Shown: piece after piece, positions 3,381 to 10,571 of the stretch
How the letters are laid out: each line of letters opens with the position of its first letter
Position numbering within the stretch: the first letter of the stretch is position 1
Assembly (NCBI GenBank): GCA_016987375.1
Contig: PJRA01000343.1
Coordinates: 824,594-836,836 of the forward strand
Direction: 5' to 3'
DNA: 12,243 bases
From: Brachionus koreanus
Taxonomy: Eukaryota > Rotifera > Eurotatoria > Ploima > Brachionidae
Translations under genes and position numbers: made by a program
The notes under the pieces: generated by a model
Told to the model about the DNA's origin: nothing
What the model saw: only the letters and a program-made list of their open reading frames with translations
Databases searched by the model: none

Positions 3381-6300
3381 TTAGAAAGATACCTTAAAAA
3401 CTTTGTTTTTATATGCATACAAGCCAAATGAAATAAGCAAAGCTATAACTATCAAAGATAAAATAGATACAGCAATTATGAGTGAAATTTCCATACTATT
3501 CAATTCCATTATTTTTTTATCTTTATCTTTGATTAGATCTTCATTTGTGTTGGTCATATTCATTTCATCAATAGTAGGACAAGGAGTTGAATAAAAATTT
3601 GTGTTGTATATCGAATCAGTTGTCATGCTGGGATCAAAATTATTAGATAAACATTCTTCTGTAATATTACTAACTGTGCGTCTTATTAAAATATCAAAAA
3701 AATTTCCAAAATTGCACAATTGATCGCACTCATTCATTTTAACTGGATTTATACTAACTGGCTCTGTAGCATTATTACTTTTCAACATGATATTGATGTA
3801 ATGAAGATCATTTGAATCTTTCCTTAGCTCAAATATTAAACTAGAGCCAAATGGTACATTTGTTAGACTAGTATTTAAATTAAGCAATTTTATTAAACTT
3901 ATAAAATGCGAGTCAAGCTAAATTAAATTAAAACAATAAATAAAAAATAATCAAAAAATTTATATATAACTTACACAAGAATATATTTGAACTTCTTGTT
4001 GTGTTCCATTCATTTTGTCACGTATATTCTTAATTATATCAAGCAAAAAAGCACCTGAAACAAGCCTAGACTTTTCCACTGAGCCATAGTTTAACTCAAT
4101 CAATTTTTCATTTACAAGAGTTAAATTTTTGAGGTGCTCTGATAGCCAAAGTTCAAGGGGAAGATTGCTTGATAACTGTCAAATTTTCGAGAAGATAAAT
4201 TTTTGAAAAAAACCAGAATAAAAAATATTAACTAAAAATTACTTTGGACATTGCATTATCAAAAATATTGCTGAGATTGACAAATGTAAGAGAAGGTGAA
4301 GCTGTGTATCCAGATATATTTGCAACTAAATTCTAAAATAAAATTTTTTAAAAAGATAATTTTTTTTTCTGTATATTAATACCATGTATTTTAATTCGGC
4401 TTCCAAATACGTTTCAGAGTTCAAGGACTCTTTAACTTTTTCATTGTACTTGGGACAATTTTTATTAACAATCTAAAAAAACAAATTATTATTCCAGTTA
4501 TCGAAAGCCTGATTTCTTAATCAAAATAAATAACTTTCATATCTAGAAAGATTTTTTTATAAATAAATGAAAAATGTTAAATTAATTTTTTTTTAATTTA
4601 AACATCTATGAACAAGAAATGTATTTTTAAGAACTTTTTTTTTTTTATTTTTATTAGGCTTAGATTAATTATCAGCTAAGTTAATTGAGCTGGTCAATTT
4701 ATTCTTTTAAAAAATCAATAAAAAATTTGTTGAACAAATTGGTAAAATGAAAAAAAGTTAAAAAAATCCTTGGTGTCATTTTTTGTTTTAATGATTTTTA
4801 AAAAAAATGCGATTGCCAACTCAGAGAATATGAAACAAGTTTTTAAACAAGCTTTGAATCAAAATATATAGAATATCTAAGATTATTGTGTAATTGCTAC
4901 CTTATTATATCCTTCTTTTTATTTAGCCATCAAACATTTAAATATTTATCTAAATTAATAAATTTTAATTTATTTTTTTTCTATTTTTAACGTATCTAAT
5001 ACTTACTTGACTTTTTTTTTTCAATTTTTATTTTATTTAATCTGAAGGTGAATTAGCTCGATACAGAAAAAAAAAAATAAATTAAATAAAAAATTTATTT
5101 ATTAGAAGTTTTATTTTTTCGCTAATAATTAAACAAGAAAATAAGAAATTAGTTGATTAGGCAGATTATTATCATTATGTCATTTTTTATTCAGATTTTA
5201 ACAAAATAGGCCGTCAATAGTGTTGTGTAATTGCTACCTTACTTTTTCCTTTATTTCCTGGGCCATCAAATATAAACATATGTATCCTGTTACACTTTAT
5301 TTCATTTTATTTTATTTTTTAATATTTTTCTATCTTTGCAATATTTGGAAATTTTCAAATGGCAAAAAAGTATCTGATTCTCTTGTCTGACGAAGATTAT
5401 CATGAAGAAAGCTTGAATGTAAAATATGCGGTTCGAAAACCAATATTATTCAAAAGCTCAAAAAAAGCATGAAAAAGTTTTTGTCTCAATATAAAATCAT
5501 GAAATGAAAATAGAAGCAGACAACACATAAAATCGAATAGCCATAAGAGAAATGCCGTCAGAGAAGTATAATGAAGAATGTATTGGAATTTGGTGTTTTA
5601 AGAGCTATCATGGTCTAGGATTATTTTGGCAAAATGAAAATAATTTTACATTTTTACATTTTCATATTTTTAGATTTTTTGTGCAATATTTAAGAAATTT
5701 TTTAATTTTTTTTTGTTTACCAAATAATTTGAAGGAATTTTTTTAATTTTTTGAAATATTGCAGAAAAAATCTAAAAATATGAATTTGTATAAATGTAAA
5801 ATTATTTTCACTTTGCCATTATTTTGTATATTTGATTGAAGGCTAATTTCCCAGAGATATGTTGATATTTTAGAAGATAACTTGCTTCCATCTATAAAAA
5901 AGCTTAGACAAGAAGATGAGTTTATGTTTCAACAAGACAATGTATTAATGATTTTCTTTAGAAGTTTTCTCCTAAAACTTTTTTCTCAATATTTCATTAG
6001 GTTGACTCGCTAAAACATTTTAAAACATTCAAATTAAAGAGAAATTCATATCCCAAAAAAAAAAATTTTAATTACTGGATTGTAAATTGATTCGGCTGGA
6101 TGAACTGGAATAGGAAACCAAGATACAGTTGGACTCCAAAGTTGATCACTATTAGATGGGGGAAACATACCAGCTAAGAAAGCATTGGTTGACACAAGAG
6201 CTGGATCAGAATCAACGCTTATAGCAAAGGCCCTTTGAGGACTGTATGAAGGAGACAAATAAGATGAATAATAATTTTTTATATATTGACCGAAGTTGTA

Positions 6301-6420
6301 GGATTGTAACAAGCCCCTGGGAGTTATCTGTCCTAAACCACCATATCTTGCCCAGTATGATTCGCCGTAGGGATCAGTTGGATAAGACCACAAAGGCGCT
6401 CTGCTTCCGTGAAAATTTAC
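3381..6420 (-). CDS. Membrane-anchored histidine acid phosphatase family protein, predicted catalytically dead
   Basis: Coding exons, in transcript order: 6420-6076, 4472-4383, 4332-4243, 4175-3975 and 3917-3381 (stop 3383-3381), all phase 0 with GT/AG introns of 1603, 50, 67 and 57 nt. The 420 residues align throughout with prostatic/lysosomal acid phosphatases: HGSRAP then YPTDP, GLGQITPRG, FLAGMFPP, WFPIPVHP, NCPKY, EKSRLVSGAFLLDII, a CDQLC pair like the family CxxxC disulfide, and a Cys (EEC) near the end. About 24 hydrophobic residues (ISLIIAVSILSLIVIALLIS) and a short basic tail (YAYKNKVFKVSF) follow, as in the lysosomal enzyme, so a type I lumenal or extracellular protein is expected; nine NxS/T sequons fit. 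The family RHGxR, RSTDxDR and HD motifs read FHGSR, ISVDSDP and LD, losing the catalytic Arg, Arg and His. The signal-peptide exon is not certain. Family call firm; loss of activity inferred. Confidence 0.88.
4888..5100 (+). repeat. Dispersed repeat family, copy X
   Basis: It opens with GTGTAATTGCTACCTTA (4888-4904), identical to 5225-5241. A pyrimidine run, a GCCATCAAA block (4926-4934, also at 5263) and an AT-rich middle follow. It then ends with TCTGAAG...GCTCG (5041-5060) and an A/T-rich tail of AAATAAATTAAATAAAA type. The end motif matches copy Y at 2073. No open frame of note. The intronic copies run antisense to the host gene. Confidence 0.5.
5225..5345 (+). repeat. Dispersed repeat family, copy Z (5' part only)
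   Basis: It starts with the same 17 bases as copy X (GTGTAATTGCTACCTTA), then shares GCCATCAAA with X and AAACATATGTA with Y. It appears to stop in the AT-rich middle; the TCTGAAG end motif is not found before the next feature. X and Z start 337 bases apart in the same direction, so they may be a tandem pair or two insertions into related sequence. Confidence 0.45.
5340..5480 (+). pseudogene. Possible zinc-finger (BED-like) transposase remnant
   Basis: Short coding-like pieces in different frames: NIWKFSNGKK near 5344, LECKICGSKTN with a CxxC pair (Cys codons 5418-5420 and 5427-5429), and, one frame later, LKKHEKVF. A Trp-containing start, CxxC and a later His are the layout of BED fingers in hAT transposases. 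The second His is not clear and a frameshift is needed, so this is weak. A 37-codon frame starting at the ATG at 5359 overlaps it and has no recognisable content. Confidence 0.2.
5540..5945 (+). pseudogene. Tc1/mariner-like transposase remnant, split by a MITE
   Basis: The middle of a DDE/D transposase, which would cut and join element ends at TA sites. Upstream of the insertion, PSEKYNEEC and IGIWCFKSYHGLGLF match the family block around VMVWGC and a following Gly-rich turn. Downstream, RLISQRYVDILEDNLLPSI then FMFQQDN match the block that carries the second catalytic Asp (codon 5936-5938, in FQQDN). The conserved AP-H after it is lost (NVLMI). The first catalytic Asp, the N-terminal DNA-binding domain and the third acidic residue are missing, and a TGA interrupts the frame shortly after the insertion. 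Removing the MITE and one copy of its 8-bp duplication joins the two halves in the same frame, showing that they were one gene. Confidence 0.75.
5628..5817. mobile_element. 190-bp MITE with 64-bp terminal inverted repeats and 8-bp target-site duplication
   Basis: The terminal repeats lie at 5628-5691 and 5754-5817. They begin GGCAAAATGAAAATAATTTT and GGCAAAGTGAAAATAATTTT (second read from the minus strand) and differ at 5 of 64 positions. They flank a 62-bp AT-rich centre with no coding capacity. ATTATTTT occurs directly on both sides (5620-5627 and 5818-5825). It sits inside the Tc1-like transposase relic, so it came later. An 8-bp duplication is known for hAT, P and Merlin elements; the GGC terminus does not settle which, and no autonomous partner is in the window. 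Confidence 0.9.
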
Positions 6421-8598: not shown

Positions 8599-10278
8599 CT
8601 AAACCCATGGTGTCCATCCTTCATACAATACAGCCAAATTATTCAAATCAATTGCTTCTTCAATCAAATAGTTGACCTAAAAAATGATCATTTTTATTTT
8701 ATGAAAATATTTTGCAGAATTTTACTTGTTCTTGAACTGTAATTTCATTATTGGGATCAGGATCACGGCCATCTAGTTTTTCAGATACCCGCTTCCACAC
8801 TCCAATCGCATGACTATTTCCTTCTTGATTCACTCTCAATACTTTAACTGTTTCACCAAGTTTTCTTTCGTTTTTATTATTCTCTATTTTTTTTTCGCAT
8901 GGATCATTCAAAACCTTCAAGTCTGCATAAATCTTTGACAAAACTTGTGACAATTCTTGGCATTTCTCCTCCAAATCATCAGTTTCAGCTTCGATCAAAT
9001 CTTTATTTGCCAAAATTCGAACCAACTGCTGACATGTATCGGAAAATTTCTGATAAGCTTTTGAATAGTCCGATAGACGTTGATTTTCACCATATTTTGT
9101 CATACTTTTCAATAAGGGTTTAATGTCAGCCATTATTTTATTGTGCTGATTGAGAATGGACTTAAATTCAGACAAACTCTTGTTTAGTTCATCAACTTTG
9201 GTCGAAAAATCTTTTTCCTCTTTTTGTTTTATTCGCTTCATTTGTGTCACTTCATCATACAAAAGCTTATAATATTCTTGCAATATAAAGCTTTTAAGAG
9301 GTTTTTGGTCTTTAAACGATTTAAAATTGATCAAATTTAATTCAGCTTCAGACAAGTGGGGAATATCGGACGTGTTCAAAAGATCTTTTTCTTCAATTGA
9401 TTTAAGAATGAATTGAAAATTTTTATTAAATTCAAGCAGTAATTTTGATTTTGGGCTTCTTATTTGCTCGAAATTGATCCACATATTTATATTATCTATC
9501 AAGTTGTTGATGCGAGATAGCTCTTGGTCAAAATTCATCTCATTTATCTGTACCATTTCTTTGAATTTTTTGCTTATTTCCGCAAGATTTGGGTTCGCAC
9601 TACTTGACCAATCAAGCCTTCGAACAATATTGGCATCATTTTGATTAATTTCTGATAGATCTTTTCGGATTTGGTCCAATCTTTTGCTCAAATCATCTGA
9701 TATACTTTTTAAATTTTCCATTAGTGACTCCCGGTTTGTTTTAAAACTGAGCTGGTTTGATAAAGACTCCACTATTAATGGATCATTAAGCCATTCAATT
9801 GATGCTATGACACTTTGAATAAGCTTCAAGAATTCTTGATTGTATTTAATATTAGAATCGATTCGCCTTTTAAAAAATAATTAAATCAATTTCAAAAAAT
9901 CTAATTTAATTTTACTGACTTTATTAAGTCAACGTTCACCCAATTGGCATCTAAATTTAGCATTAATTGATTGAAAGTATTAAAAAAGTAGTTATTTATT
10001 TCATTGATCATTAGTTTTTGGTTGATTAGGAAGCTAATTTGCTCGGCCTGAGAATTCGGGTCTATCAAATTGTATTGATAATTGCTTAGAATAGTGGTCA
10101 CGTTTCCAATCAACAATAAAGGCAATCCATTCACCTTAGCAGAAAAGGGTGTAATTTAACAGAAAAAGCATAAACGAATTTTCCTAGTGACTTACCATTT
10201 GAGTGATAAATTCGGAAACATAATTTTTGAGTGGGAGCATAAAATCCTCTAGACTAAAATTAAAATCAGTTCTGGAAC
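8599..10278 (-). CDS. SMG1: SMG1-like PI3K-related kinase, C-terminal part with FATC domain
   Basis: SMG1 is the kinase that phosphorylates UPF1 in nonsense-mediated mRNA decay. Exons in transcript order: about 10278-10196, 10134-9920, 9866-8726 and 8676-8599 (stop TAG 8601-8599), joined by GT/AG introns of 61, 53 and 49 nt with matching phases (0, 2, 0). The final exon reads NYLIEEAIDLNNLA then VLYEGWTPWV, a complete FATC domain whose LYEGW-x-WV end is closest to SMG1; ATM, ATR and mTOR end differently. Just before it, GVWKRVSEKLDGRDPDPNNE and VQEQV also fit SMG1. The roughly 450 residues upstream are helical and Glu/Lys/Asn-rich with coiled-coil character (SLMENLKSISDDLSKRLDQI), as expected for the long insertion between kinase and FATC that marks SMG1. 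The kinase domain is not in view, so the gene is 5'-partial here. The first exon start may instead be 10253. Confidence 0.85.
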
Positions 10279-10571
10279 CTTTGAATAAATTAAAATTAAA
10301 GATATTTTTTATTTTGACAAATTTTGAAAAGGCAAATAATTTTTGAAATCTAAAGAAAATTTTAAAAAGATTATTTTTGAGAATGAGCATTATATGCCTA
10401 ATTTATTAGATAATTTTGAGTATAATAATCTATCAAAAAATCAAATATTAAAAATTAAAATGATTTTTTAGTTTTAAAAATAAAAAACTTTTTATTTTAT
10501 AATCGATTATTTTTTTCAGAAAAAAATATTATAAAAAAATATAATTTTATCTACAAATAAAAAATTTCCAC

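Follow-up and report, generated by a model that had tools for sequence, protein, structure and literature searches.

A histidine acid phosphatase-like membrane protein of the rotifer Brachionus koreanus, probably inactive and probably maintained by selection

The stretch of Brachionus koreanus DNA analysed here (the window; 12,243 bases, 24.9% G+C, from a genome of 83.3 Mb) carries a gene for a histidine acid phosphatase-like protein on its minus strand, from 6577 to 3381. Six exons encode 454 codons and a stop. All exon joins are in phase 0 and the introns run GT..AG. The original prediction for this locus, made from the sequence alone, had described five open, in-phase and well-spliced exons between 6420 and 3381. 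Those five exons and their splicing were confirmed, but the start was incomplete and an upstream signal-peptide exon (6577-6476) had to be added. This exon 1, placed by its frame and GT donor, has 34 codons that include the start codon, a signal peptide (hydropathy 1.7 across residues 4-22) and the first beta strand, and the protein continues across its junction with exon 2 as in a protein of B. calyciflorus (P0001). Exon 2 (6076-6420) holds motif I (VNFHGSRAP), motif II (SVDSDP) and the stretch downstream. Exons 3 (4383-4472), with the Cys of NCPKY, and 4 (4243-4332) have 30 codons each, and exon 5 (3975-4175) has 67 codons and ends in YSC, ahead of the position of His257 in human prostatic acid phosphatase (PAP). 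Exon 6 (3381-3917), assigned from frame and hydropathy, supplies LD in place of the family’s HD, followed by a CxxxC motif, a stalk, a membrane anchor, a short tail and the stop codon.

The protein belongs to the family by descent, matching the PF00328 profile with a score of 52.1 bits where the cut-off is 23.6. The CxxxC motif (C340/C344) and the membrane anchor were both noted originally and both are there, the anchor as a strong C-terminal hydrophobic stretch with a predicted transmembrane helix at 3426-3494 (hydropathy 3.16 across residues 420-438). The claim that sequons are kept has to be divided. Seven ectodomain sequons of the eight in the protein are matched in place by B. calyciflorus sequons, but the three PAP sites have no exact counterpart: in the Asn301 column the residue is Ser323, a sequon following two residues later, and by eye nothing corresponds to the Asn62 and Asn188 sites. 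Sequon conservation is thus from rotifer to rotifer and does not extend to PAP. Compared with the prostatic and lysosomal acid phosphatases (ACP3 and ACP2; PF00328, histidine phosphatase branch 2), the window protein also lacks the C183-C281 pair and has its glycosylation sites placed differently, again by eye, and its Arg11, Arg79 and His257 are replaced.

Residues are numbered on the human PAP chain, where RHGDR spans 11-15 and RSTDVDR spans 73-79, so that Arg79 is the second arginine of motif II. In the alignment, positions 11, 12, 15, 79, 257 and 258, which are Arg, His, Arg, Arg, His and Asp in the active enzymes, read Phe, His, Arg, Pro, Leu and Asp in the window protein. The original count of three of the six lost, with His12, Arg15 and Asp258 kept, therefore stands, as do a Phe codon (TTT, 6412-6414, minus strand) for Arg11 and a Leu codon (CTT, 3915-3917, minus strand) for His257, the next codon being the retained Asp258. 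The assignment in motif II was wrong. The Ile codon (ATA, 6220-6222, minus strand) read as the loss of Arg79 sits at Arg73, and the true Arg79 position is a Pro codon (CCA, 6202-6204, minus strand). This correction matters, as the first arginine of RSTDxDR was rejected as a sign of inactivity: among the 115 aligned rows that retain the full catalytic set of six, 23 have another residue there. As intact enzymes vary here, Ile at Arg73 carries no weight. The three motifs of an active enzyme are nevertheless all disrupted, with FHGSRAP for RHGxRxP, Pro for the Arg79 of STDxDR and LD for HD.

These counts come from an alignment of 126 rows, made up of 123 of the 124 proteins found (P0004 was left out) and three gene models. 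As the third protein search used an intact paralogue from the same genome (C1) as query, the counts are biased towards intact sequences. The combination RHRRHD occupies the six catalytic positions in 115 rows. The 11 others are the window protein, P0001, a metagenome protein (P0003), a second B. koreanus gene (C35), three rows that differ by gaps only and four entries from vertebrates, each with a single aberrant motif and some of them perhaps gene-model errors. Position 11 is Arg in 120 of the 125 rows with a letter there.

P0001 was the closest protein found, with 62% identity across 93% of the window protein as query. At the six positions it has Tyr, His, Arg, Pro, Leu and Asp, the same losses and retentions as the window protein, and its motifs (VNYHGSRAP, SVDSDP and YTLLD) have matching flanks. 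In the one orthologue reached, this is the opposite of relatives keeping the motifs while the window copy alone has decayed. The two ectodomains align over 331 residues without a gap at 69% identity. By exon the identity is 43, 83, 37, 67, 61 and 60% for exons 1 to 6, and in the stalk it is 41%. We simulated neutral change from the window ectodomain to equal identity 300 times, under one mutation model and along one lineage, which is a different measure from the ratio of nonsynonymous to synonymous change (dN/dS). The simulated sequences acquired a mean of 7.6 stops, and each of the 300 had at least 1. The observed differences had a mean BLOSUM62 score of 0.59, against -0.53 in the simulations (standard deviation 0.17, highest -0.02).

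The contrast between simulated and observed stops and substitution scores points to purifying selection over a long time, acting on a protein whose catalytic residues had already been lost. The absence of constraint expected of a pseudogene is not seen here, the ectodomain having no gap, no stop and differences that are conservative compared with simulation. The window gene is thus probably a maintained, inactive acid phosphatase and not a decaying gene. The proposal that selection keeps a non-catalytic product is supported, as P0001 shares the losses and the reading frame has been constrained since the two species split. The 115 intact rows have 74 columns at which conservation reaches 90% or more, and of these the window protein retains 47 and P0001 49; having all six catalytic residues was the condition for choosing the rows, so the six catalytic columns are conserved by design. 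PAP position 107 is Gln in 107 of the 115, and Phe or Tyr in the window protein, P0001, P0003 and C35.

P0003, a 245-residue Joint Genome Institute (JGI) metagenome protein, has Gly, His, Lys and Lys at the first four positions and stops short of motif III. Its position was examined in two trees with hand-chosen rows, one of 39 (36 proteins and three models) and one of 23 (21 proteins and two models, without C35), neither of which contains the flea sequences discussed below. The window protein, P0001 and P0003 formed a clade in both, with support of 100/99 in the larger tree and 100/98 in the smaller, from which seven motif columns had been removed. Because Arg11 is missing from P0003 too, and P0003 falls with both Brachionus proteins, the loss of Arg11 seems to be older than the split of the two species. 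P0002, which keeps all six residues, joined this clade weakly in the 23-row tree (76/56). A profile search built on four sequences returned three proteins, P0001, P0003 and the distant P0004, and viral_contigs, scanned with P0001 and P0003, gave no match. No further Brachionus-named protein was among the matches listed (2 proteins in the first search; the best 120 of 206 in the third), in searches that require exact shared words and a length window and do not show absence.

The genome has nine stretches matching PF00328, on seven contigs. The C1 paralogue has all six residues (RHGARTP, STDFDRT and SSHD) and is membrane-anchored. The C35 gene (G000:C35:550985-553005, L018, minus strand) has Asn, His, Arg, Arg, Phe and Glu at the six positions. 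Like the window gene it lacks Arg11 and His257, keeps His12 and Arg15 and has Phe/Tyr at Gln107, but C35 differs in retaining Arg79, in having Glu for Asp258 and in lacking an anchor. As the C35 model has a weak acceptor before motif III, Phe and Glu for His and Asp are provisional; the first model was used in the 126-row alignment, the conservation counts and the hydropathy analysis, and a revised one in the 39-row tree. There C35 lies on a long branch beside P0002 (90/66) and, as P0002 is intact, the free tree would favour two losses of Arg11. A single clade of the window protein, P0001, P0003 and C35 was not found in the free tree but was not rejected (p-AU, approximately unbiased test, 0.369). 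We tentatively suggest, at somewhat less than even odds, that rotifers have an old lineage-specific branch of membrane-tethered binders in which Arg11 was lost first and the phosphate pocket then became hydrophobic and aromatic while His12 stayed, C35 either belonging to this branch or having taken the same route independently. If so, whether C35 lies within the branch or evolved in parallel, the repeated reuse of the fold as a receptor would be a general tendency extending beyond blood-feeding insects.

A precedent for such reuse comes from fleas. The salivary proteins XcAP-1, -2 and -3 have an acid phosphatase fold, are inactive on p-nitrophenyl phosphate (pNPP) and bind amines and leukotrienes, with His12 replaced by Gly and His257 by Ser or Pro; among the blood-feeders that the authors compared, they saw such losses only in fleas (PMC10728186; PDB 8gdl). 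Among inactive histidine acid phosphatases, theirs is the one case we found in which a new function has been demonstrated, and the window protein plausibly works in a similar way, having lost activity and been retained for binding. Both catalytic histidines of the flea proteins are replaced, whereas the window protein keeps His12 and has lost Arg11 and Arg79, and they are secreted in saliva without an anchor, while the window protein has one (hydropathy 3.16 over 19 residues). Literature searches for acid phosphatases or pseudophosphatases of rotifers brought up no paper on such a protein among the matches listed. A conserved, membrane-anchored rotifer case with other residues lost would show that unrelated animals have turned this fold to use as a scaffold for binding.

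The fold itself was predicted for P0001. Folding without an alignment gave an unusable model (predicted local distance difference test, pLDDT, 33), but refolding with a hand-chosen alignment of 67 rows gave a PAP-like structure with the two domains of the PAP fold.

We consider it somewhat likely (a probability of about 0.6) that the window gene encodes a type I membrane protein with an ectodomain of the prostatic and lysosomal type, which has lost the classical phosphatase chemistry and which selection keeps for a binding role. The phosphate pocket appears remodelled in both species, with two arginines and one histidine lost and an aromatic residue (Phe or Tyr), Pro and Leu gained. Judging from published PAP mutagenesis, such a protein would have no useful phosphomonoesterase activity. 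Ligand binding in the former active-site cleft is the most likely role on sequence grounds, because conservation is highest in exon 2, where motifs I and II lie. The ligand need not be a phosphate ester, and the protein may be displayed on the cell surface or within an endomembrane compartment, where it would serve as a receptor, sink or adaptor.

Several observations weigh against this picture. Only the window protein and P0001 show all three losses together, and the deposited B. calyciflorus model lacks a transmembrane stretch (best hydropathy 0.86), so that the anchor is confirmed for the window protein only. The retention of His12, Arg15 and Asp258 would be odd were chemistry wholly irrelevant. 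Conservation is the single line of evidence that points to the cleft, and the P0001 model is weak at residues 121-150 (block pLDDT 52-72), which form part of that region. The flea structure 8gdl ranks only 49th (Foldseek) and 40th (VIA-align) among structural matches, behind active enzymes and bacterial phytases.

Acid phosphatases of the prostatic type act as dimers, and many pseudoenzymes regulate active partners. The main rival to a binding role is a regulatory one, in which the inactive chain would pair with a catalytically competent acid phosphatase (the C1 paralogue, for example) and alter its activity or location. A candidate partner is present, as C1 is in the same genome with all six catalytic residues and an anchor, and the Trp and His at PAP positions 106 and 112, which we take to be dimer interface residues, are retained in the window protein, P0001 and P0003. 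However, most of the intact rows inspected for this retain them too, so their presence need not mean pairing. The adjacent Gln107 is changed to Phe or Tyr in all three and in C35, and C35 lacks both interface residues. We regard this mixed dimer as unlikely, though it ranks first among the rivals.

It is less likely again that the protein is an altered enzyme, with His12, Arg15 and Asp258 providing weak or different chemistry on an unusual substrate. The two Brachionus proteins share all three residues, which would fit, but Arg11 is reported to be essential and is nearly invariant in the alignment, Arg79 and His257 have gone too, and P0003, a member of the same clade, has Lys at Arg15.

A duplicate phosphatase on its way to decay is very improbable. 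The loss of catalytic residues is a typical first step, and identity is low in exon 3 and the stalk, but the frame is open with clean splice sites, a second species shares the losses and no neutral simulation matched the gap-free ectodomain in staying free of stops. Least probable of all is an error of gene model or assembly, with the true residues in another exon or misread in sequencing: the Arg11 and His257 positions do lie near exon starts, where a wrong splice choice alters residues, but P0001 has matching changes and flanks, a protein search found one exon 2 at the locus, and no AG directly precedes the His12 codon, so that we saw no alternative splicing that would bring the motifs back.

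Elsewhere in the genome, an open frame of 881 residues contains a full-length PF00328 match of 262 bits (G000:C29:824413-825972, L001), which probably corresponds to the phosphatase half of a protein of the PPIP5K type. Another locus (G000:C15:1659837-1660019 and flanks, L020, minus strand) encodes a histidine phosphatase of a more distant kind, which looks MINPP-like. Its first motif, RHAANYP, is without the second arginine, and its third is HGD.

Intron 2 of the window gene (4473-6075, 1603 bases) contains an inverted repeat at about 5627-5818, with 74-base arms that are 89% complementary. Further copies occur in the genome, mostly at 89-96% identity (40 of the 1028 first-look candidates were scored), and the repeat looks like a small non-autonomous DNA element. 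Two short open reading frames (ORFs) in this intron (5531-5746 and 5840-6013, plus strand), which by eye look like a Tc1-type transposase, had no Pfam match. Near the start of the window, reverse transcriptase fragments on the plus strand at 68-613 (RVT_1, E 2.2e-14) and 958-1164 (4.4e-5, under the cut-off) are probably the remains of a LINE-type (long interspersed nuclear element) transposon. On the same strand as the phosphatase gene, 8699-10402 holds an open stretch of 393 residues and upstream ORFs, two ORFs there having no Pfam match over the cut-off, and is probably another gene.
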